Source: Pseudomonadota bacterium
GTDB lineage: Bacteria > Desulfobacterota > Binatia > Binatales > Binataceae
Direction: 5' to 3'
DNA length: 64,000 nucleotides
NCBI GenBank assembly: GCA_021325025.1
Contig: JAJPHZ010000041.1
Location: 124,001 to 188,000, forward strand
Below the pieces are notes generated by a model, which ran no database searches, had not been told where the DNA came from, and saw nothing but the letters and a program-made list of their open reading frames with translations. Position 1 is the first letter of the stretch. Every line of letters begins with the position of its first letter. Both the position numbers and the translations under genes were made by a program. This document shows positions 13,758-57,229 of the stretch, piece by piece.

Positions 13758-15101
13758 ATGAAACGGGGAAAGCTTCTAGTAGTCGGGGTACTAGCGAGCG
13801 CACTGCTGTTAGGCGCGATATGGTCGTCGGCCATGGCGCTGGAGATGGTGCCCTGGGATGCCAAGAATTACGATCAGATCGTTTCGGCGGACTCCACCGA
13901 AACGATCGCGCCAGGCACCAAGATCAACATGCAGAACTGGCAGCAATACAAAAAGTTCATGCCCTACGGATTGTGGGTGCTCTGGAGCGGGACGCAGTTT
14001 TATAAGCTGCCGCAGAACGCCGAAATGGAAGTAGTGGCCAACCAGCATATTCCGCTGCCCAAGAAGTATCTCCAGGATACGGAAAAATATTCCAGCCAGG
14101 TCAGCTTGGTCCCCAACGACTTCGGCGGGCTCAGTCCGAAAGGCTATGTCGCCGGCTCACCGTTTCCCAACCCCAGCGGCCCCAATGCCGGTATCGAGAT
14201 CGTCTACAATGAATACTACGCCTACGTCCCCTACGTGATTACCACATACGCGCATCTCGGATTCACCATGGACCAGTTCGGTAACAAGTCCGTGAGCGAA
14301 GTTCGCGAGGTGAATTTCAAGATCAAGCATCTGAGCGACCCAGGCAAACCGATAAATGTACCCGGTTTCGGAGACGTGTTCCTGACCTATAACAATATCG
14401 TTATGGTCCCGGAACAGTCCAAATATACAAATGATCTCGTGATATTCTATGACGATCCGGCCACACTGGGCGAGACCTTCGTGTTTGTGCCCTCGCTGCG
14501 ACGCTCCTTGCGCCTGTCTTCGGCGGCCCGATGCTCGCCGCTGGTGGGAAGCGACTACACGGCTGACGACGAGCGCTCGATGAGTATTCAGCCGCCGCTT
14601 TTTCAGGCGAAATTTCTCGGCTACAAGAAGATCCTCGTCATGTACCCAAAGGTCCCGGGTTACGAGAGCAAGGCCAATTACTATCAGCCGGTCTGGTTTG
14701 CTTCGCCCAAGGCGGCGGTGTGGATGCCGCGCACGGTCGCGCTGGTGGATATCCGGCGCACGGACAAGATGAAGGCCGGATATTGTTACGGCAGCCGCAT
14801 GGCCTATATCGACAAGGAAACCTGGCAGCCGATCTGGATGGATCTGTATGACATCAACCTGAAGCTGTGGAAAACCGGACCCTCGATGTACAAACCGATG
14901 CCGTTGCCCAACACCAATGGCGACGTGTCCACCGGCGGCGGCGGTCCGGGAGACGGCATGTACGAATTCTACGACATCCAGAATGACCACATCACATTCG
15001 ACATCCAGACCGACGCGCTGATCAACGAAAACGTACCCCCCGAATACCAGGACTTCAACCGATGGGGAACTCCCGCGGGTATGCTTCAGGTTATGCAGTA
15101 A
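13758..15101 (+). CDS. DUF1329 domain-containing exported protein (copy 1)
   Basis: 447 residues. A clear signal peptide (VVGVLASALLLGAIWSSAMA) has a likely cleavage after residue 27. The mature part carries DUF1329 landmarks: NPSGPNAGIEIVYNEYYAYV, then NDLVIFYDDPATLGETFVFVPSLRRS, GSDYTADDERSMS, and a C-terminal DFNRWGTPAGML. DUF1329 proteins are envelope proteins related to outer-membrane lipoprotein-sorting folds. They are often encoded near hydrophobic-substrate degradation genes, and their biochemical role is not established. AAGGAG precedes the ATG. A close paralogue of the same length follows after 92 bases. The usual DUF1302 or RND/MMPL transporter partners are not in the window. Confidence 0.85.
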   Translation: MKRGKLLVVGVLASALLLGAIWSSAMALEMVPWDAKNYDQIVSADSTETIAPGTKINMQNWQQYKKFMPYGLWVLWSGTQFYKLPQNAEMEVVANQHIPLPKKYLQDTEKYSSQVSLVPNDFGGLSPKGYVAGSPFPNPSGPNAGIEIVYNEYYAYVPYVITTYAHLGFTMDQFGNKSVSEVREVNFKIKHLSDPGKPINVPGFGDVFLTYNNIVMVPEQSKYTNDLVIFYDDPATLGETFVFVPSLRRSLRLSSAARCSPLVGSDYTADDERSMSIQPPLFQAKFLGYKKILVMYPKVPGYESKANYYQPVWFASPKAAVWMPRTVALVDIRRTDKMKAGYCYGSRMAYIDKETWQPIWMDLYDINLKLWKTGPSMYKPMPLPNTNGDVSTGGGGPGDGMYEFYDIQNDHITFDIQTDALINENVPPEYQDFNRWGTPAGMLQVMQ

Positions 15102-15193
15102 CGGATAGGCTGGGAGTCCGTACCGGCGGTGTCCAGGACTGTCCGGGGATAGAGCCCGCCGGCACGGACTGCAGAAAAGGAGAGTGCGTTATA

Positions 15194-16537
15194 ATGCGTA
15201 GAAGATCGGGATTCGCGGTTATCGGGATGGCGGCGGGCGCGTTGCTGTTAGGTGCGATGTGGTCGTCGGCGATGGCGCAGGTGCAGGTGCCGTGGGATCG
15301 GAAAAACTACGATCAGCTTGCCCCGGCTGATACCACGGAGTCGATTCCGCCGGGGACCCACATTAACATGCAGAACTGGCAGCAGTACAAGAAGTTCATG
15401 CCGGTCGGACTGTGGGTACTGTTCGAAGGCACCCAGCACTGGAAACTGCCGGCCAACGCGGAATTGGTAGTGGAAGCCAACAAGCATATTCCCTTGCCCA
15501 AGAAGTACCTGGCCGACACCGAGAAATATTCCAGCCAGGTCAGCCTGGTTCCCAACGAATTCGGTGGCTTGAGCCCCAAGGGTTACGTGGCCGGAATCCC
15601 GTTCCCAAATCCCAGCGGTCCCAACGCCGGAATGGAGATCGTTTACAACGAATACTATGCTTACGTTCCGTACCTCATTACCACTTACGCCCATGATGGT
15701 TTCAACATGGACCAGTTCGGCAACACGTCGGTCAGTGAGGTGCGCGAGGTAAACTTCAAGGTTAAGCATCTGAGCGACCCCGGCAAACCGGTTAATATCC
15801 CCGGTATGGGGGACGTTTACCTGACCTATAACAACATCGTGATGGTCCCCGAACAGTCGAAGTACACCAACGACCTGGTCATTTTCTATGACGATCCAGC
15901 CACGCTGGGCGAGACCTTCGTGTTCGTGCCGTCCCTGCGCCGCTCGATCCGGTTGTCCTCGGCGGCGCGATGCTCGCCGCTGGTGGGCAGCGATTACACG
16001 GCCGACGACGAGCGCTCGATGAGCATACAGCCGCCGATTTTCCAGGCCAACTTCGTCGGTTACAAGAAGATCCTCGTGATGTACCCGACGGACGATTATT
16101 ACAAACATTCCAATTACTATCAGCCGGTGTGGTTCGCCACGCCGCGCGCCGCCCGATGGCTGCCGCGCGACGTCGCGGTGCTGGACATTCGCCGCACTCA
16201 GAAGACCGCCGCCGGCTACTGCTACGGCAGCCGCATGGCGTACATCGACAAGGAAACCTGGCAGCCGATCTGGATGGACTTGTACGACGTCAATCTGAAG
16301 CTGTGGAAGACCGGTCCCTCCATGTACAAGCCGATGCCCCTGCCGGGCACCAACGGCGATGTTTCCACGGGCGGCGGCGGCCCCGGAGACGGGATGTATG
16401 AATTCTACGACATGCAGAACAACCATCTGACCTTCGATATTCAGCGCGACGCCCTAATCAACGAAAATGCGCCTGCCACCTACCAGGATTTTAACCGCTG
16501 GGGCACGCCTGCCGGCATGTTGCAGGTTATGCAGTGA
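15194..16537 (+). CDS. DUF1329 domain-containing exported protein (copy 2)
   Basis: 447 residues from the ATG at 15194, with AAGGAGA before it. The ORF track starts 44 residues earlier inside the spacer. Its own signal peptide (VIGMAAGALLLGAMWSSAMA) is cleaved about residue 28. By eye most aligned residues match copy 1, without any gap except a few residues around the YYKHSNYYQPVW segment. The pair is therefore a tandem duplication under conservation. Both copies keep a Cys in SSAARCSPLVGSDY and another in AGYCYGSRMAYIDKETWQPI. The gene product is probably periplasmic or outer-membrane associated, possibly handling the substrate of the CoA-transferase operon that follows. Confidence 0.85.
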   Translation: MRRRSGFAVIGMAAGALLLGAMWSSAMAQVQVPWDRKNYDQLAPADTTESIPPGTHINMQNWQQYKKFMPVGLWVLFEGTQHWKLPANAELVVEANKHIPLPKKYLADTEKYSSQVSLVPNEFGGLSPKGYVAGIPFPNPSGPNAGMEIVYNEYYAYVPYLITTYAHDGFNMDQFGNTSVSEVREVNFKVKHLSDPGKPVNIPGMGDVYLTYNNIVMVPEQSKYTNDLVIFYDDPATLGETFVFVPSLRRSIRLSSAARCSPLVGSDYTADDERSMSIQPPIFQANFVGYKKILVMYPTDDYYKHSNYYQPVWFATPRAARWLPRDVAVLDIRRTQKTAAGYCYGSRMAYIDKETWQPIWMDLYDVNLKLWKTGPSMYKPMPLPGTNGDVSTGGGGPGDGMYEFYDMQNNHLTFDIQRDALINENAPATYQDFNRWGTPAGMLQVMQ

Positions 16538-16605: not shown

Positions 16606-17811
16606 ATGGCGTTGCAGGCGTTGGCAGGAGTTCGGGTGCTGGATTTGACCCGCCACGTGGCGGGTCCCCTCTGCACCAAGCTCCTGGCTGATTACGGCGC
16701 CGACGTCATCAAGATCGAAGTTCCGGGAAGGGGCGATCCGGCACGCTGGATCGCCCCTTTTCTGCATGAGCTGCCCCATCCCGAGCGCAGCGGCCTGTTC
16801 CTGCATCTCAACACCAACAAGCGCGGCATCACGCTCAACCTCAAAACCGAAACCGGCCGCGCGATCTTTCTGAGGCTACTGCCCTCCGCCGACATCGTGG
16901 TGGAAAACTTCCAGCCCCGTGTGATGCCGTCGCTGGGGTTGGATTACGCCACCCTCAGCAAGATCAAGCCGGCGCTGGTCATGACTTCGATCAGCAACTT
17001 CGGCCAGACCGGACCCTATCGGGATTGGCGTGCCTCCGACCTGATCGTGTATGCGATGGGACACGAGATGTGGGGGACGGGGCAACCCGACTGCGAGCCC
17101 GCCGGGATGGCCAACAAGCTGAGTTTGCATATCGCGGGCCTGATGGCGTTTACGGCGACGCTGGGCGCGTTTTGGGAAGCGCAGCTCCAGGGTGTGGGCC
17201 AGCAGGTGGACCTCTCGATCATGGAGGCGATGGCCTCGTCGATCGATCGGCGCGCACCCTCGCTGCTCGCCTACCAATACTGCGGCGAGCGCGCCGAGCG
17301 CATCCCCTCGGTCCACGGCATCGACGCGCCGCCGTTCGTCAACTACTGCGCCGATGGATTTTTCGAGATCACGGTCGGCATCCAGTGGTGGAAGGAATTC
17401 GTGCGCGCGATCGGTGAGGACTGGATCAACGACCCGGCCCTGAGGCCGCCGGTGCGCGACGTCAAGGCTCGCGAGCGCTTCGATGCGCATTGGATTCCCT
17501 GGTGCATGGCGCGCACCAAAAATGAGATCGTGGCGATTTTCCAAAAGGCCGGCATTCCGTGCGCGCCGCTGAATACCACCGAGGACCTGGTCAAGGATCG
17601 GCAACTGGCCGAGCGCGGTTTTTTCATCGAAATCGACCATCCCGCGGCCGGGCGCCTGACCTATCCGGGGGCACCGTTTCGCATGGCGCGCTCGCCGTTT
17701 GAGATTCGCCGGCCGGCCCCGATGCTGGGCCAACATAACGCCGAAGTGCTGGGGGAACTGGGCTACGACGCCAAAGACCTTGCCGCCCTGAGCGCGGCCG
17801 GCGTTATATAA
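16606..17811 (+). CDS. Family III CoA-transferase (CaiB/BaiF) lacking the catalytic aspartate
   Basis: 401 residues of the CaiB/BaiF fold: GVRVLDLTRHVAGPLCTKLLADYGADVIKIE at the N-terminus (read in parts), ADIVVENFQPRV, the loop SNFGQTGPYRDW, and a long linker to the C-terminal CAPLNTTEDLVKDRQLAERGFF. In family members such as formyl-CoA transferase an Asp (Asp169 in YfdW/FRC) carries the acyl group. Counting back from the GVGQQVDLS motif, that position is Leu174 here (SLHIAG). The protein is therefore probably not catalytic alone. The next gene, 22 bases downstream, keeps the Asp, which suggests a heterodimer. The ribosome site is weak (GATGAG). Confidence 0.9.
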   Translation: MALQALAGVRVLDLTRHVAGPLCTKLLADYGADVIKIEVPGRGDPARWIAPFLHELPHPERSGLFLHLNTNKRGITLNLKTETGRAIFLRLLPSADIVVENFQPRVMPSLGLDYATLSKIKPALVMTSISNFGQTGPYRDWRASDLIVYAMGHEMWGTGQPDCEPAGMANKLSLHIAGLMAFTATLGAFWEAQLQGVGQQVDLSIMEAMASSIDRRAPSLLAYQYCGERAERIPSVHGIDAPPFVNYCADGFFEITVGIQWWKEFVRAIGEDWINDPALRPPVRDVKARERFDAHWIPWCMARTKNEIVAIFQKAGIPCAPLNTTEDLVKDRQLAERGFFIEIDHPAAGRLTYPGAPFRMARSPFEIRRPAPMLGQHNAEVLGELGYDAKDLAALSAAGVI

Positions 17812-17833: not shown

Positions 17834-19132
17834 ATGCCGGGGTTGCCGCTGGAAGGCCTTCGCATTGTTGACATGGGCATCGCCCTGGCCGTGCCCTATG
17901 GCACGATGTTGCTGGCCGACCTTGGCGCCCAGGTGATCCGCGTCGAGTCCACCCAGGTCTTCCCCAATCAGACCCGCGGCCTGCTGGCGCGTCCCTCCAA
18001 AGAGGCAATCAAGACGATGGCGCCGGTGTCCGGCGGCTATCCGGACCGGGAGCCCGGCGAGCGGCCCTGGAACCGCTTTCCATGGGCCAACTGCACGGGG
18101 CGCAACAAGCTGGGCATGACCGTGGATCTGCGCAAACCGTCGGGCCTGGAGGTCTTTCGCCGCCTGGTCAAAATCAGTGATGCGGTGGTGGAGAACAACA
18201 CGCCGGCCTCGCTGGAGCGGATGGGCATCACCTACGATTGGATGCGCGCCATCAAAGAGGACATCATTTTTGTTCAGGTCTCCTCCTTCGGCCAGAACGG
18301 TCCTTATCGCGACTACCGCGCCCTGGGCCTGCAAGTCGACGCCTTTTGCGGACACGACATGCTGCGCCGCTACCGCGATCGCGATCCGAGCTACAACACC
18401 TGGGCGGTGCCGTCGGACTACGCGGGCGGCATCGGCGCGGCGGCCGCCTGCCTGCTCGCCCTGATCCATCGCAAACGCACCGGCGAAGGCCAGCATGTCG
18501 ACATCTCGATGGTAGAGAATTTTGTCAACCTGATCGGACACATCGTGATGGATTACACGATGAACGGGCGGGTGCAGGAAAGCCACGGCAATCGCGACCC
18601 GGACATGGTCCAGGGTGTTTACCGCTGCAAGGGCGACGACCGTTGGGTCGCCATCACCATCGCCACCGACGAGCAGTGGCGGGGATTTTTGCGCGCCGCC
18701 GGCGATATGCCGGAGCTGCGCGATGCGCGTTTCGCCACCGTCCCCGAGCGCCTGCGCAACCAGGACGCGCTCGACCCGCTGATTGAAAAATTCACGTCCA
18801 AATACGATCACCGCGAGGTGGCCGAGTTGCTGCAGCGCCACGGCGTTCCTGCCGGTCCGGTGCTCGACGACGCCGACGCCTACGGCGACCCGCAATTGCG
18901 CGAGCGCGGCTTCTTTATCCCGATCACCCACGCCGACGCCGGCCAGCATCTTTATCCGGGGATGCCGTGGAAGATGTCGCGCACGCCGCTTCAGGTCCGC
19001 ACGCCGCCGGTGCGCCTGGGCGAACACAACGAATACATTTACAGGGAACTTCTGGGCTATTCACAGGAAGAGTATCGGCAACTGGAGACCGAAGGGCATA
19101 TCGGCACCGAGTACGCACCGCACATCCGCTGA
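17834..19132 (+). CDS. Family III CoA-transferase (CaiB/BaiF) with catalytic Asp195
   Basis: 432 residues. Family motifs are LRIVDMGIALAVPYGTMLLADLGAQVIRVES (read in parts), DAVVENNTPASLERMG, SSFGQNGPYRDYRALG and RTGEGQHVDISMVE. The Asp that forms the anhydride intermediate is Asp195 (VPSDYAGG), 21 residues before the T of TGEGQ, as in formyl-CoA transferase. The reaction would be CoA transfer between a donor thioester and a carboxylic acid. AGGAG lies 10 bases before the ATG. It starts 22 bases after an Asp-less homologue, a pairing comparable to the two-subunit BbsE/BbsF benzylsuccinate CoA-transferase. The acid substrate is unknown. Confidence 0.92.
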   Translation: MPGLPLEGLRIVDMGIALAVPYGTMLLADLGAQVIRVESTQVFPNQTRGLLARPSKEAIKTMAPVSGGYPDREPGERPWNRFPWANCTGRNKLGMTVDLRKPSGLEVFRRLVKISDAVVENNTPASLERMGITYDWMRAIKEDIIFVQVSSFGQNGPYRDYRALGLQVDAFCGHDMLRRYRDRDPSYNTWAVPSDYAGGIGAAAACLLALIHRKRTGEGQHVDISMVENFVNLIGHIVMDYTMNGRVQESHGNRDPDMVQGVYRCKGDDRWVAITIATDEQWRGFLRAAGDMPELRDARFATVPERLRNQDALDPLIEKFTSKYDHREVAELLQRHGVPAGPVLDDADAYGDPQLRERGFFIPITHADAGQHLYPGMPWKMSRTPLQVRTPPVRLGEHNEYIYRELLGYSQEEYRQLETEGHIGTEYAPHIR

Positions 19133-50568: not shown

Positions 50569-51462
50569 ATGGTGGGTGTAACCGAGTTGGGTTATATCGG
50601 AATCGAGGTAAGCAACCCTCAGGAATGGAAGACCTTCGCCACCGAGGTGCTGGGGCTGGAGATGGCCGACGAGGGCGAGGCAGACCGCTGCTATCTGCGG
50701 ATGGACTACTGGCACCATCGGATCGTGATGCACGTCGGGACCGGCGACGACTTGCTCTACCTGGGATTCCGGGTCGCCGGCGGCGAAGAATTCCGCGAGA
50801 TGCAGCGCCAACTGGCCGATGCCGGCGTCGGCTTCCGCGTCGGCTCTGACGAAGAAGCCGCCGAACGCCACGTGCTGGAAGTGCTCAAGCTGACCGACCC
50901 GGGCGGCAATCCGGTCGAGATCTTCCACGGACCCGAAATCCAGGCCAACAAGCCGTTCCATCCGGGACGCCGGATGCACGGGCGCTTCAAGACCGGCGCC
51001 GGCGGATTGGGTCATTGCATAATCCGCCAGCCCGATCCGAACGCTGCCTACCGATTCTACACTTTGTTAGGGATGCGCGGCGGAATTGAATACAAGATGC
51101 GGATGGGCAAGCAGGTCGCGCAGCCAGTGTTTATGCATTGCAACGAGCGCGACCACACGGTGGCGTTCTTCGATATCGGCGGCACCGCCGGCCCGCGCCT
51201 CAACCATATCATGCTCGAGGTCGAGAACTTCGACGACCTCGGCCTGACCTATGAAATCGTGACCGAGCGCAAGATTCCGCTCGTCATGGGCCTGGGCAAG
51301 CATTCCAACGATCAGATGTATTCGTTCTACTTCAAAAACCCGTCAGGCTGGGCCTTCGAATACGGCTGGGGCGGCCGCCCCGCAACCTATCAGTCCGAGT
51401 ACTTCGTCAAGGACATGTACCGCCAGGCGGTTGCGGGCGGCGGCGCGGAGCCCAAGCGCTGA
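50569..51462 (+). CDS. Extradiol ring-cleavage dioxygenase (VOC family, BphC/HsaC type)
   Basis: 297 residues, two VOC domains, the size of BphC. The C-terminal catalytic domain keeps the 2-His-1-Glu iron site: His149 (GGLGHCIIR), His213 (RLNHIMLEV) and Glu264 (PSGWAFEYGWGG). The spacing closely matches His146/His210/Glu260 of BphC. It should cleave a catechol ring next to the hydroxyls with O2 and Fe(II); BphC-like enzymes act on biphenyl diols or steroid catechols. GGAGG precedes the ATG. This is the strongest evidence in the window for aromatic-ring or steroid-A-ring breakdown. Confidence 0.92.
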   Translation: MVGVTELGYIGIEVSNPQEWKTFATEVLGLEMADEGEADRCYLRMDYWHHRIVMHVGTGDDLLYLGFRVAGGEEFREMQRQLADAGVGFRVGSDEEAAERHVLEVLKLTDPGGNPVEIFHGPEIQANKPFHPGRRMHGRFKTGAGGLGHCIIRQPDPNAAYRFYTLLGMRGGIEYKMRMGKQVAQPVFMHCNERDHTVAFFDIGGTAGPRLNHIMLEVENFDDLGLTYEIVTERKIPLVMGLGKHSNDQMYSFYFKNPSGWAFEYGWGGRPATYQSEYFVKDMYRQAVAGGGAEPKR

Positions 51463-51468
51463 ACGGCG

Positions 51469-53826
51469 TTACAGACGGCTGAAGATGGCGCCGCAGTCGC
51501 GCAGTTGTGCGATGCGTTGGGCGTCGTAGCCGAGCAGTTGGCTGAGGACTTCTTCTGAATGTTCGCCCAGGCGCGGCGCGGGCGTGATGGTTGGGTTTGT
51601 GCCGTCGAATTTGATGAACGGGGCGGCTTGTTCGACTGCGCCTACTTCCGGATCATTCACCACGACTTTCAGATCATTGGCGATTACCTGGGGATCGTCC
51701 AACATCTGCGTCAGATGCGGAACCGGCGATACCGGGACGCCGCCCGCGAGCAGCGACTGGAAGAGCGCATCGAATGAAGAGCCCGCGCAATATGCCGCCA
51801 ACGCTTGTGCCAAGTCACCGTCAGGCCCTTCGTTGCGGGCCTGCTCGTAGCTCATCGCGCCAAGCTGTGGGATGTGCGAGCGCAGCGCATCCCATGACAC
51901 GGCGTCGGACACCGACAGGTACAGCCATTGGCCGTCGCGGCATTGATAGACGCGATGGAGCGCCGCGGGACCACGCGATTCCGGCGCGCCGGTTTCCAGG
52001 TTGGGACGCTCCTTGTAGAAGACAAACTCTCCCGCTTGCAGGGACATAACGGCGTGGATCAGCGAGGTCTCGCACAACTGCCCCTTGCCGGTCAGTTGGC
52101 GTGCGCGCAGCGCCAGGATACATCCCAGCGCCGACAGCGTGGCGGCGCCGTAATCGCTGATTGGCACCGTCATGTAAATCGGATGCCGCGGCGAAGCGCC
52201 GCTGCCGCCCGGATAACCGTCGCCGCCATGCGCCGCCATCGTACCGGAAATCGCCTGCGTCAGCGGGTCCAGCCCGGGACGGTCGTAGTCGGGGCCGCTG
52301 CTGCCGAACCCCGTCACCGACATGTAGATGAGGCGCGGATTGATCGCGGACAGCCGCTCGTAGTCGATACCCAAGGCCCGCGTGCGTCCGGGACGGAAGT
52401 TTTCCACGAAGACGTCGGCCTTGCGTACCAAATCGTATACCACTTGCAGTCCGTGCGGTGACTTGAGGTCAACGCCGAGCGCGCGCTTGTTCTGGTTCCA
52501 CGCCCTGAACCCGGTCACGTGGCGCAAAGAGTCGCCCTCGGGTCCCTCGATCTTGATCACGTCGGCGCCCAGATGCGCCAGCAGCATCGGTCCGAACGAA
52601 CCGGCGATGTAGCTCGACGCGTCGATCACCGTGATGCCCGCCAATGGCCCTTTGCCGCCGCCCGGCGGCGCGCCGGGGCGCGAAGCGTCCTTGCGCGCAC
52701 GAGCCTGTTCGAGCAGCGCCGGCAGCAGAGGATTTGCCGGGTCTACGATCGGTGCCGGACCGGCGATTTCCCCCGGGGTCGCACCAAGCCTGATCGGCGG
52801 ACCCATCTGGATTGTCGCTCCGAGGGCGGGATCATGGACTTCCCGGCGCATACCCAGATGGCGCACCTGCGGGTCGTCGAGAAATTGCTCGCGCGTCAGC
52901 ACCGGCGCGGCCGGCACCTCGTATTGCTTGAGGATGTGCACCCATTCGTCGCGCGGACGCTGCAGGAACGCCGCGTCGAGCAGCGCCTTGAGTTCATCGA
53001 CGTGGGCGCGCGCAACGCGCCACGGCGCCTGGTTGAAACGCGGATCGTCGAACAGCGCCGGCCGACCGATTGCCGCGGCCAGGCGCTGGCAAAAACGCAC
53101 GCTGGTGCAATCGACGATCAGGTACAGACCGTCCGATGCTTTGAACAGACGGATCACGGCATACGGGCCCATCGGGTCCGTCGGTCCGGGCTGCGAGGTC
53201 GGCAGATGCGGGTTGCGAATGAAATCGCCGCTTTGCAGCGCGAGCGCGCCGGCCAGCAGCGACACCTCCGCAGGGCCGTATCCGGCGCCGTCCTCGCGCG
53301 CGACAAGTCCGGCAACGGCGGCCGCGGCACCCATCAATCCGGCCTGGTAGCTCGGCGCGGGGAACGTAGTCACGACTGGTTTGCCGCTGCGCGCGATCTG
53401 GCTGGCGAAGATGCCGCTCCACGCCCGCACCAGGTCGTCTTCCAACTGCAGGCCGGCGTACGGACCGCGGCTGCCCAGCGGCGGCATCCGCAACGCCACC
53501 GCGGCGGGATTCGCGCGGCGAATCGATTCGCAGTCAAGCCCCAGCGCGCGAGCGCGGTCGGACGTGAAGCCGCTTACCACCACGTCGGCGATTTTCAAAA
53601 GGTCATGCGCTTTGGCCAAATCCGCGGGCGCGTCGAGGTCCAGGAACAACGCCTGCTTGCTGCGATTGAGCACGTGAAAATGGGGCGTGCCGCGCGCTGC
53701 ATCGCCGCCGCGCGGTTCGATCCTGATGGTCCTGGCGCCATACTCGGCCAGCAGCATCGCCGCGTAGGAGGAACCCAGATGCCCGGCAAACTCGATGACT
53801 GTAATTCCGTCCAGCGGTTTGACCAT
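51469..53826 (-). CDS. Double-length fused family III CoA-transferase
   Basis: 785 residues made of two CaiB/BaiF halves. The first (1-370) has LDGITVIEFAGHLGSSYAAM and PLGSRGPYAGLQLEDDLVRA; the second (395-785) has LAGITVIDASSYIAGSFGPM, ADVFVENFRPGR and GFGSSGPDYDRPGLDP. The halves are homologous but diverged. Counting back from the G-x-G-Q motif, the catalytic Asp is Asp558 (ISDYGAAT) in the C-half. In the N-half the position is Tyr160 or a neighbour (APSYQAG), with no Asp. The fusion therefore couples one active and one inactive half. Convergent with the dioxygenase, and upstream of nothing on its strand until the cupin at 53870. Confidence 0.93.
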   Translation of the reverse strand: MVKPLDGITVIEFAGHLGSSYAAMLLAEYGARTIRIEPRGGDAARGTPHFHVLNRSKQALFLDLDAPADLAKAHDLLKIADVVVSGFTSDRARALGLDCESIRRANPAAVALRMPPLGSRGPYAGLQLEDDLVRAWSGIFASQIARSGKPVVTTFPAPSYQAGLMGAAAAVAGLVAREDGAGYGPAEVSLLAGALALQSGDFIRNPHLPTSQPGPTDPMGPYAVIRLFKASDGLYLIVDCTSVRFCQRLAAAIGRPALFDDPRFNQAPWRVARAHVDELKALLDAAFLQRPRDEWVHILKQYEVPAAPVLTREQFLDDPQVRHLGMRREVHDPALGATIQMGPPIRLGATPGEIAGPAPIVDPANPLLPALLEQARARKDASRPGAPPGGGKGPLAGITVIDASSYIAGSFGPMLLAHLGADVIKIEGPEGDSLRHVTGFRAWNQNKRALGVDLKSPHGLQVVYDLVRKADVFVENFRPGRTRALGIDYERLSAINPRLIYMSVTGFGSSGPDYDRPGLDPLTQAISGTMAAHGGDGYPGGSGASPRHPIYMTVPISDYGAATLSALGCILALRARQLTGKGQLCETSLIHAVMSLQAGEFVFYKERPNLETGAPESRGPAALHRVYQCRDGQWLYLSVSDAVSWDALRSHIPQLGAMSYEQARNEGPDGDLAQALAAYCAGSSFDALFQSLLAGGVPVSPVPHLTQMLDDPQVIANDLKVVVNDPEVGAVEQAAPFIKFDGTNPTITPAPRLGEHSEEVLSQLLGYDAQRIAQLRDCGAIFSRL

Positions 53827-53869: not shown

Positions 53870-54247
53870 CTAACCGATCGCCGTCGTCAACAGCAATACG
53901 CTGTCCTCCAATGCCTCGACGCTGTGGACGATCTCGCGGTCCAGCGCGAACATCGTTCCGGGCGTGATTTCATGCGGCACGCCGGCGGCCGCAAAGTTGA
54001 CGCGGCCCGACATGACCTGCACCGTCAGCGGGCCGCGGGTACGATGCTCGTGCAGGCGCGCGCCGCGCCGCAGCGCCATCAGCATCACGTTAAGCCCGTA
54101 GTCCTTGACCAGGCTTTTGGCTTCGCGATCGCCGCCCGAGGCGCCCAGTTTCGACTTGAGCTGGTCGATCTCCGCGGTCACGTCGATCATCGCAAAGCCG
54201 CCCGGCGCAGGCCGCAGCGCCTGTCCGATGTTCTCGTCATCAGCCAT
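53870..54247 (-). CDS. Small cupin-domain protein
   Basis: 125 residues from the ATG at 54247 with GGGAGGG eight bases before. The longer listed ORF is rejected. After a helical N-terminus (IDVTAEIDQLKSKLGAS), the cupin barrel shows LMALRRGARLHEHRTRGPLT, VQVMSGRVNFAAAG, PGTMFALDREIVHSVEAL. Two histidines near HEH and one in VHS form a possible metal site. Small cupins may bind ligands or protect quinones; the role is not known. It is 98 bases after the EthD remnant and before the fused CoA-transferase on the same strand. Confidence 0.82.
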   Translation of the reverse strand: MADDENIGQALRPAPGGFAMIDVTAEIDQLKSKLGASGGDREAKSLVKDYGLNVMLMALRRGARLHEHRTRGPLTVQVMSGRVNFAAAGVPHEITPGTMFALDREIVHSVEALEDSVLLLTTAIG

Positions 54248-54345
54248 TGCAAGACCCTCCCTGGCTGCGTGAAACCTCAGTCGAGCCGTCAAGCACGGTC
54301 GGCTTGCGAGCCGCTCCGGTTCGCGAACCGCCCGTGCTACCGATT

Positions 54346-55117
54346 CTACTCCAGCCAGGGCTGTTTGACGCGCTCGGCGATTTCGGCCAGCGCCTGAGCC
54401 TTGGATTTTCCGGGCCACATCACCAGCCGCGCCTCGGAGAAGAAGTACCACGGCGGCTCGCTGAAGTTGGCGAAGTCGGGCAGCAAGCTGCGCTGAAACT
54501 CGGTCGAGGCGAGTGCTCGGCGCGCTGCCTCATAGTTGTCGAACCAGATCTCTTCGGCGCCGTCCCATCGCGGGTCGCCCCAGTGGTACGCCTCGTCGAG
54601 CACGGTGCATTGCTGGTAGTAGCGCAGGCCCGGGATCGACTTGACGATCGGCGCGTGGACATCAGCCCAGTAGGCGCGGAAGTCCTCCACCGTCATGCCC
54701 ATCTTGTGCTGTAGCTGAAAGATGCCCTGGATCATTCCCGAAGCCAGGCCGCCCGCCCATCATCGGCGTGTCCTGCGTGAACATCCAGCCGATGCGGGAG
54801 AGGTCGATGAAATTGAACTCGTCGCGTTTGAAAGGCGAATTGGGATGCTCCTTGACTGAGAGCTGACCGATCATGCGGTTTTCCGGCTCCTCGCCCCAGA
54901 CCTCGCTGACCGCGTCGAACGGCGAATCGCCGCCCAGCGAATGGACGCGATGGTTCTGGATGTAGCGGCGCATCCCGCGCGGCCGCGTCTCGCCGCCCCT
55001 GGTGCCCAGTTCCGCCTGCCGCATCCCCGCTTGCGTGTGGAGCGCCAGGTAATGGTGATGGAAGCCGGCCGAACTCAACGAAGGCTTGCGCGCGAAGAAA
55101 TAAAACATGTGGTACAT
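54346..55117 (-). pseudogene. EthD tandem-domain gene interrupted by a frameshift
   Basis: Two overlapping reading frames together make one EthD protein like the 21470 gene. The N-half starts at the ATG 55117 (GGAGGAAATACCG before it) and runs MYHMFYFFARKPSLSSAGF... to DEFNFIDLSRIGWMFTQDTP. The other frame, from about 54735, continues MIQGIFQLQHKMGMTVEDFR ... to VKQPWLE. The frames meet in a GC run (GGGCGGGCGG, about 54751-54760) where one extra base shifts the frame. Either it is a recent pseudogene, or an assembly or sequencing error; the split halves are otherwise well preserved. If the second half starts at its own ATG it could still be expressed. Confidence 0.75.
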
Positions 55118-55220
55118 CGGTATTTCCTCCGATACCGCTGCTGTCCCCTTTTCCACATTCAGTTACAACCACGGCTACGCCGCCTCGAGCCGGAAGAACT
55201 GAACGGGCTGGGGTGGCGTC

Positions 55221-56048
55221 TTACTTTTTCTTGAACGCGCGGTCGCGCTCGGCCAGCGCGCCCTTAAGTCCCATCTTGCGCTGATTCCTGACCCACGCCT
55301 TGACCGCCTCGGTGTTGTGGAAGATGACGTCGATATCGCCACCCGACTGCTGCGCGGCGCGAAAGCCCGTCACCTCCAGGTAGCGGTTGACGGCCGCCTT
55401 GTGCAGCACCAGCAGCTCGGGCGAGACCAGCGCCACGCGCCGCGCGTAGGCCAGCGTCTCCTCTTCCAGCTTCTCGCGCGGATAGACGCGGTTGACCAGA
55501 TGCCACTCCAGCGCCTCCTGGGCGGTCATCGAGTCGCCGGTGAAGAAATACTCCTTGGCCTTGCGCGGACCCATCAGCACCGGCCACAGCGCCATCGTCG
55601 GCAGCACCCCCAGTTGACGGCCGGCGGGATGGCCGAAGGTGGCATCTTCGCTGGCAAACACCACATCGCAATGACCGACCAGTTCGTTGGCGCCCGCCAG
55701 GCAATAGCCGTGAACCTGCGCGATGGTAGGTTTGCTGAGCGACCACAACCGCTGCCATCGCTGCGTCACGCGCAGGCAGTCGATAAAGTCCCGGCTGACG
55801 GTGTAGCGCCGGCCCGCGCCGGCGTTGCCGTAATCCGAGGCGAGATCGTAGCCGGCGCAAAAGCCGCGCCCCGCGCCGCGGATTATCAGCACGCTGGCTT
55901 CGGGGTCATTGTCGAAAGCCTGCGTGGCATCCTCGAATTCGGCCAGCAACTGCGGCGACAGCGCGTTGATCTTTTCGGGGCGGTTGAGCGTGATGCGGAA
56001 GATCTTGTCCTCGACCTTCTCGTAGATGATGGTTTGATAATCGGCCAT
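55221..56048 (-). CDS. Enoyl-CoA hydratase/isomerase (crotonase family)
   Basis: 275 residues from the ATG at 56048 (GGAGC upstream). FRITLNRPEKINALSPQLL, the oxyanion GAGRGFCAGYDLASDYG and HGYCLAGANELVGHCDVVFA, then ATFGHPAGRQLGVLPTMALW. The usual FGQPE glutamate position reads as GHPAG, so classical hydratase Glu residues are not clear. A hydrolase, isomerase or thioesterase-like crotonase is possible. The C-terminal KGALAERDRAFKKK is basic. It sits between the EthD remnant and an LLM gene on the same strand. Confidence 0.88.
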   Translation of the reverse strand: MADYQTIIYEKVEDKIFRITLNRPEKINALSPQLLAEFEDATQAFDNDPEASVLIIRGAGRGFCAGYDLASDYGNAGAGRRYTVSRDFIDCLRVTQRWQRLWSLSKPTIAQVHGYCLAGANELVGHCDVVFASEDATFGHPAGRQLGVLPTMALWPVLMGPRKAKEYFFTGDSMTAQEALEWHLVNRVYPREKLEEETLAYARRVALVSPELLVLHKAAVNRYLEVTGFRAAQQSGGDIDVIFHNTEAVKAWVRNQRKMGLKGALAERDRAFKKK

Positions 56049-56140
56049 GGGCTTGCTCCGTTCCTGATAGTGGTCAAACCATCGCATTGCGCGCGCACGC
56101 TGACAAGGCTTGGGATGCGGCAGCGGGGCGCGGAACTCGC

Positions 56141-57115
56141 TCAGCCGCCAAACTCCGGCATCACCTGCCGTGCGAACAGCTCGAGCGACTCGTCGGACAT
56201 GAACGACAGAATGAAATAGGTAATGTTGAACTCCTCAATACGCGACCGGATCTCGCGCCGTACCTCCTCCGCGGTGCCGACCAGCAGCATCGGGAAGTTG
56301 CGCGCGCCCTCGGCGTCGGGCAGGCCCATGTTCTCCGCGGCCCGGCGCGCCATCGCGTCGCTCTGCGCCTTGTCGGCGGCGATGAAGGTGGTCGACAGCG
56401 ATGAGATTTCGATCGCACCTGGATCGCGTCCGCACTCGCGCGCATACTTGTGCAGCAGTGCCAGGCGCCGCTTGAGATCGGGCTTGTCGAAGCGCGCCGA
56501 CTCCTTGTAGTCGACGAATCCGCGCGTGACCGGCGCAATCAGGTTGAGGATGTCGGCGTAGCGCGCCGCGACCTTCAGCACCGCGCTGCCTGCGCCGCCC
56601 ACCAGGAGGGGCGGATGCGGTTTCTGGACGGGCTTGGGAAAGTTGTAGGCCTTGTCGATCGAGAAGTAGCGCCCATGAAAGGCCGGCTCCTCCTGCGTCC
56701 ACATCGCCTTGAGCACCTCGATCCCCTCGGCGAGCTGCTCGATGCGCTGCGCGTTGGACGGATAGGGGTAGCCGTAGGCGTCGTACTCGCGCCGCAGCCA
56801 TCCCGAACCCAGCCCGGCGATAAACCGTCCGCCGCTGATGTTATCGACCGAAGATGTGATTTTGCCCAGCAGCGCGGGGTTGCGATAGGACATTGCGGTG
56901 ACCAACGGCAGCAAACGCACGCGGCGCGTGACCAGTGCCAGACCGGTCAGCGCCGCGTAGCATTCCAGCTCGGGCAGCCGTTTGCCGTGGGTATTGATCA
57001 AATGGTCGGGCACTGAGACCGAATAAAAGCCCAGCGCTTCGGCCCGCTCGGCCAGCGTCCGGGCTTTGGCGAAATCGGCGACCGGCGCCAGAGCGCCGAA
57101 CTTTATCTGCGGCAT
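56141..57115 (-). CDS. LLM class F420-dependent oxidoreductase
   Basis: 324 residues from the ATG at 57115. KFGALAPVADFAKARTLAER, FYSVSVPDHLINTH, RVRLLPLVTAMSYRNPALLGK, GGRFIAGLGSGWLRREYDAYGY and KPVQKPHPPLLVGGAGSAVL are the standard LLM motifs. A long insertion (RFDKPDLKRRLALLHKYARE) and a FNITYFILSFMSDESLELFA end make it a separate subgroup from the 20511 and 58045 genes. It lies 114 bases behind the SDR and 92 ahead of the crotonase. Substrate unknown. Confidence 0.9.
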   Translation of the reverse strand: MPQIKFGALAPVADFAKARTLAERAEALGFYSVSVPDHLINTHGKRLPELECYAALTGLALVTRRVRLLPLVTAMSYRNPALLGKITSSVDNISGGRFIAGLGSGWLRREYDAYGYPYPSNAQRIEQLAEGIEVLKAMWTQEEPAFHGRYFSIDKAYNFPKPVQKPHPPLLVGGAGSAVLKVAARYADILNLIAPVTRGFVDYKESARFDKPDLKRRLALLHKYARECGRDPGAIEISSLSTTFIAADKAQSDAMARRAAENMGLPDAEGARNFPMLLVGTAEEVRREIRSRIEEFNITYFILSFMSDESLELFARQVMPEFGG

Positions 57116-57229
57116 GGGATCTGCGGTTCGCCACCTCTCGAAGATGAGTTCGGCTAACAAGCTATTACACGCGCGCTTGGGCGGTAAAGCACCGACGGCG
57201 ACGGCTTCGCGTTGGGTAATCGCCCTACG

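Follow-up and report, generated by a model that had tools for sequence, protein, structure and literature searches.

A two-domain family III CoA-transferase with a single catalytic Asp, and related asymmetric pairs and fusions in the genome of a soil bacterium

The window analysed here, a 64-kb stretch of DNA from a soil bacterium (G000 C1:124001-188000), carries on its minus strand a gene for a fused two-domain family III CoA-transferase of 785 amino acids (P0001; positions 51469..53826), delineated by its open reading frame, by Pfam and by its fused relatives. The Pfam profile CoA_transf_3 (PF02515) matches the protein with 549.8 bits (cut-off 23.3) in two stretches, one in each half, and Pfam detects no domain besides these two, in agreement with an earlier note on this DNA that described two CaiB-like halves. 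The N-half (approximately residues 1-388, 52663..53826, minus strand, as are all features within the gene) has the family fold according to Pfam, AlphaFold and Foldseek, lacks the catalytic Asp and is proposed to be a pseudo-subunit. The C-half (approximately residues 389-785, 51472..52662), with its best Pfam stretch at residues 395-757 and an invariant Asp558, is the catalytic domain, and a linker placed approximately by its poor conservation (52654..52728) joins the two. Among the NCBIfam equivalogs none scores over its cut-off for the fusion, the best being succinate-glutarate CoA-transferase (275.2 bits against 750), and an Rfam search of the 64-kb window returned no match.

Upstream of the fused gene, on the same strand, lie a small cupin-like gene that is kept in the genus (53870..54250), an EthD-domain gene (54349..55220), an enoyl-CoA hydratase family gene (55221..56087) and a luciferase-like monooxygenase gene (56141..57160). 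The EthD-domain gene is frameshifted in the window and intact in two congeners (L031, L032), so that either a pseudogene or an assembly error is involved. These four genes precede the fusion fully in one congener and partly in the other, and a gene for a BphC-like extradiol dioxygenase (50569..51462, plus strand) is arranged tail to tail with the fusion in the window and in one congener. As a guide to the substrate, this neighborhood is conserved within the genus only, with different neighbors outside it; the substrate is perhaps an acid of a degradation pathway that would also employ the luciferase-like, enoyl-CoA hydratase and EthD proteins.

The catalytic column was read from two alignments, one of the 121 domains of this family in the genome and a second that adds Escherichia coli Frc, YfdE and CaiB and the chains of PDB 9fn0. 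Asp558 (codon 52153..52155) shares a column with the catalytic Asp of Frc (Asp169), YfdE (Asp173), CaiB and BbsF, and the corresponding place in the N-half is occupied by Ser159 (codon 53350..53352); the two sites align without gaps, TFPAPS159Y160QAG in the N-half versus TVPISD558Y559GAA in the C-half, with the neighboring Tyr common to both. Fused relatives turned up when 148 genomes of the class were searched, with identities of 72-75% in two congeners, about 47-56% through much of the family and about 36-45% outside it. Asp558 is kept in all of 40 full-length fusions, and the N-half site is occupied by Ser in 32, Gly in six, Ala in one and Cys in one, never by Asp, which argues that the asymmetry is not due to chance and bears out the assignment of the single catalytic Asp to the C-half in the earlier note. 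An apparent two-gene version of the fusion in genome G027 (L126, 4480-4680) proved to be a frameshift in the repetitive linker and not a genuine gene pair.

The ENxRPG motif forms part of the CoA site in family III CoA-transferases. It is present in the C-halves of the fused relatives (ENFRPG, residues 475-480, 52387..52404, assigned from conservation) and lost from the N-halves, where the 785-residue protein has SGFTSD. What the N-halves keep is a [DN]PxG loop (Asp217-Pro-Met-Gly220 in this protein, 53167..53178, identified by conservation and by alignment to YfdE), in which Pro218 and Gly220 are invariant, together with the likewise invariant Tyr160 next to Ser159. Over the 40 fusions the mean conservation is 0.67 in the N-half and 0.69 in the C-half, with 35 and 65 invariant residues, respectively; judging from the sequences, both halves are under constraint. 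Such clear constraint on the N-half, and the Glu or Asp that some further fusions of the genome carry at the equivalent position, would fit a second active site that uses another residue, but in the fused family the N-half has neither a conserved acidic residue at this place nor the CoA motif, which makes a working N-half site very improbable. A catalytic Asp in the N-half, which the earlier note had named as a possible objection to its reading, was not found by sequence alignment.

Modeled by itself in AlphaFold, the N-half (residues 1-383) reached a pLDDT of 86 and a pTM of 0.85, and Foldseek comparison of this model with Rv3272, human SUGCT, YfdE and BbsF gave TM values of 0.79-0.85; a model of the full chain built from four sequences had a pLDDT of 50 and was not used. 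Among solved structures the best match of the N-half in both sequence and fold is Mycobacterium tuberculosis Rv3272 (5yiy, 5yx6), which differs from it in being a single-domain protein with its own Asp175. YfdE and Frc (YfdW) of E. coli share the fold, but as symmetric homodimers they have two equivalent active sites. In the YfdE dimer the two ring-shaped subunits are threaded through one another and the GNxH loop reaches the active site of the partner; Asp173 of the active site is supplied by one subunit and His233 of the loop by the other (PMC3720670). The [DN]PxG loop of the N-half falls at the place of this GNxH loop in the sequence alignment, in a low-confidence part of the N-half model.

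Taken with these structures, the fusion is probably a single-chain form of an asymmetric family III CoA-transferase dimer with one working site per chain; the interlocked arrangement, the cross-subunit loop and the CoA-transfer reaction itself are proposed by analogy with solved relatives. The two halves would interlock as the subunits of a normal dimer do. The C-half would bind CoA, and Asp558 would form the covalent intermediates, first a mixed anhydride and then an Asp-CoA thioester, while the N-half would take no part in covalent chemistry and would provide a scaffold and a substrate-facing loop (residues 217-220) that extends across the interface to Asp558. Since the covalent chemistry would thus be confined to the C-half, each chain would have one working site, and if the halves pack like a dimer, the loop of the C-half would face the empty site of the N-half.

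Two-domain enzymes with a single C-terminal catalytic Asp, namely DddD and PtmU4, are already known. Like the fusion, both consist of two family III domains in tandem, joined by a linker of low conservation (PMC6006322), and in PtmU4 the need for Asp430 of the C-terminal domain has been demonstrated by mutation (PMC6006322). PtmU4 catalyzes a thiolation and DddD a transferase/lyase reaction. An asymmetric division into one active and one Asp-less unit is also found in BbsEF, the succinyl-CoA:(R)-benzylsuccinate CoA-transferase (PDB 9fn0, 9fol, 9fun), which was compared through PDB titles and chain sequences: the 9fol entry names a D178-CoA adduct, and chain A of BbsEF has Tyr at the Asp place. 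BbsEF differs from the fusion in having separate subunits and in belonging to another lineage, that of a gene pair in the window (P0002/P0003). As PtmU4, DddD and BbsEF are known, the asymmetric layout of the fusion is not new.

These comparisons also bear on the reaction. Both characterized two-domain enzymes have unusual chemistry (PMC6006322), no NCBIfam model reaches its cut-off for the fusion, and the gene neighbors are not conserved beyond the genus, all of which would be compatible with the described fold and asymmetry serving a non-classical reaction, such as a thiol transfer or a lyase or isomerase reaction of the kind seen in PtmU4 and DddD. CoA transfer is nevertheless what the family usually catalyzes, and the C-half has both its CoA motif and its Asp intact, so that a non-classical reaction appears possible but rather unlikely, and CoA transfer by a single-chain asymmetric dimer is retained as the preferred interpretation.

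The window also contains the two subunits of such an enzyme as separate genes on the plus strand, a Leu-type (a) subunit of the BbsE lineage (16606..17811) followed by an Asp-type (b) subunit of the BbsF lineage (17834..19132), both assigned from alignments and tree; Pfam identifies two DUF1329 genes directly upstream of this pair (13758-16537, plus strand). The catalytic column holds Leu in the first protein and Asp in the second, so the earlier note was right in seeing here the same asymmetry as in the fusion, which it attributed to convergent or shared evolution of a pseudo-subunit. A phylogenetic tree of 79 sequences separates the two cases. The N-halves of the fused family fall into one group with those of other fusions and with the first gene of each of two separate pairs (18 rows, 100/98), the C-halves likewise form one group (18 rows, 85/67, not starred), and the Leu/Asp pair of the window belongs to a lineage other than that of the fusion. 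When BbsE and BbsF of PDB 9fn0 are added, they are placed in the lineage of the window pair (12 rows each, 99/96 and 100/100). Tyr occupies the Asp place in BbsE and in several first genes of its lineage. AU tests under LG+C20, whose p-values somewhat favor rejection because some of the groups were named after the first tree had been seen, rejected trees in which the N-half was joined to the Leu-type lineage (p-AU 9e-5) or the C-half to the Asp-type lineage (p-AU 9e-4), as well as trees that united all pseudo-subunits of both lineages (p-AU 6e-7) or all active partners (p 0.002) in a single clade, and rejected less strongly a grouping of the N- and C-halves of the fused family with each other (p-AU 0.008).

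The proposal that the fusion joined the ancestors of the Leu-type and Asp-type genes of the window, with a shared origin of the pseudo-subunit, could draw on the same asymmetry and on the same order of the members, the inactive one being first. Given that the three pertinent groupings, of either half with its supposed counterpart and of all pseudo-subunits, are rejected and that the pair groups with BbsE/BbsF and the fusion does not, it is extremely improbable; the expectation that each half would group with the corresponding gene of the pair thus failed, and of the two readings offered in the earlier note the convergent one is favored by the tree. With the window pair grouping with BbsE/BbsF and the fusion in a second asymmetric lineage, the asymmetry arose at least twice.

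The other route considered is a recent internal duplication within the fused family, after which one copy would have lost the Asp; such a duplication is what the earlier note had listed as contrary to its reading. The closest sequence to the N-half in the genome is its own C-half (31%), and both lineage-B groups fall in one unstarred set (85/85), which makes an old duplication likely. The separate grouping of N-halves and C-halves, though, fits a split before the fusions diverged, and the enforced union of the two halves of the family is rejected, so that a recent duplication is improbable. Two of the separate pairs in the lineage of the fusion have a ribosome-binding site and an ATG between the genes and are therefore considered real. 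The presence of these two genuine pairs makes it plausible that separate genes, forming a pair other than that of the window, gave rise to the fusion, with both fusion and fission as possible directions.

The asymmetric enzymes of the window are part of a much larger set. The 5.36-Mb genome contains 122 matches to PF02515, and a second search gives 121 domains in 103 genes; about 121 family III CoA-transferase domains is an extreme number for a genome of this size. First-look candidates number 134 and 109 in two congeners and 20-85 in other members of the family. The genome has 18 genes with two domains and 18 pairs of adjacent genes, and the Asp is absent from the first member in 30 of these 36 as against three of 84 other domains (Fisher p 5e-19, a value that ignores shared ancestry). 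Six first members of the BbsEF lineage have Asp in the aligned column in an HQADFQ-like context (L024, L023, L019, L014, L051 and L086). The inactive member comes first in 36 of 36 cases in this genome; as a general rule this order was discarded, the reverse being found in L034 and in G001, G002, G005 and G019. In one two-domain fusion (L076:10011-12506) Glu replaces the catalytic Asp in both halves (AESV in the C-half), and judging by these residues the protein is possibly inactive or of changed chemistry. An 881-residue fusion (o7, L084:2742-5384) carries Glu at the N-half site and Asp at the C-half site and groups with SUGCT-like single genes; it apparently represents a separate duplication and an independent third origin of the asymmetry.

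The two members of the asymmetric enzymes appear to have evolved in step. The distances that separate first members from one another were compared with those that separate their partners; the correlation is 0.90 for 25 pairs of the BbsEF lineage and 0.85 for 10 pairs of the lineage of the fusion, and none of 10,000 permutations reaches either value. A lone Asp-less gene (o326, L067:9155-10345, C35:97654-98844) and a lone Asp gene (o166, L048:2438-3781, C25:76937-78280), located on different contigs, hold equivalent positions in the two trees. The congeners G001 and G002 have the orthologs of both (81-88% identity) next to each other, which indicates that the pair has been split in this assembly by rearrangement or misassembly, and their nearest homologs lie side by side in two other members of the family. 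The matching trees thus allowed the partner of an isolated inactive gene to be predicted, and the relatives bore this out.

The interest of these observations lies in the repeated origin of the asymmetric layout and in its scale, dozens of paired and fused enzymes in one genome of a soil bacterium; a limited literature search found no account of such a layout arising repeatedly and being amplified in a single genome. Lineages of separate origin in this genome have long retained, in parallel, a catalytically empty half, and the coevolving halves constitute a natural experiment on the role of a pseudo-subunit, with the prediction that covalent chemistry resides in one half and substrate choice in the other. 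It may tentatively be suggested that asymmetric CoA-transferases are a repeatedly evolved design, used at least three times in the genus and multiplied to about 36 enzymes in this genome, and that their substrate is chosen by the "dead" half. If so, dividing the CoA and Asp site and the substrate loop between unlike halves would leave the loop-bearing half free to diverge, and would provide a single genome with a large set of acid-CoA specificities.
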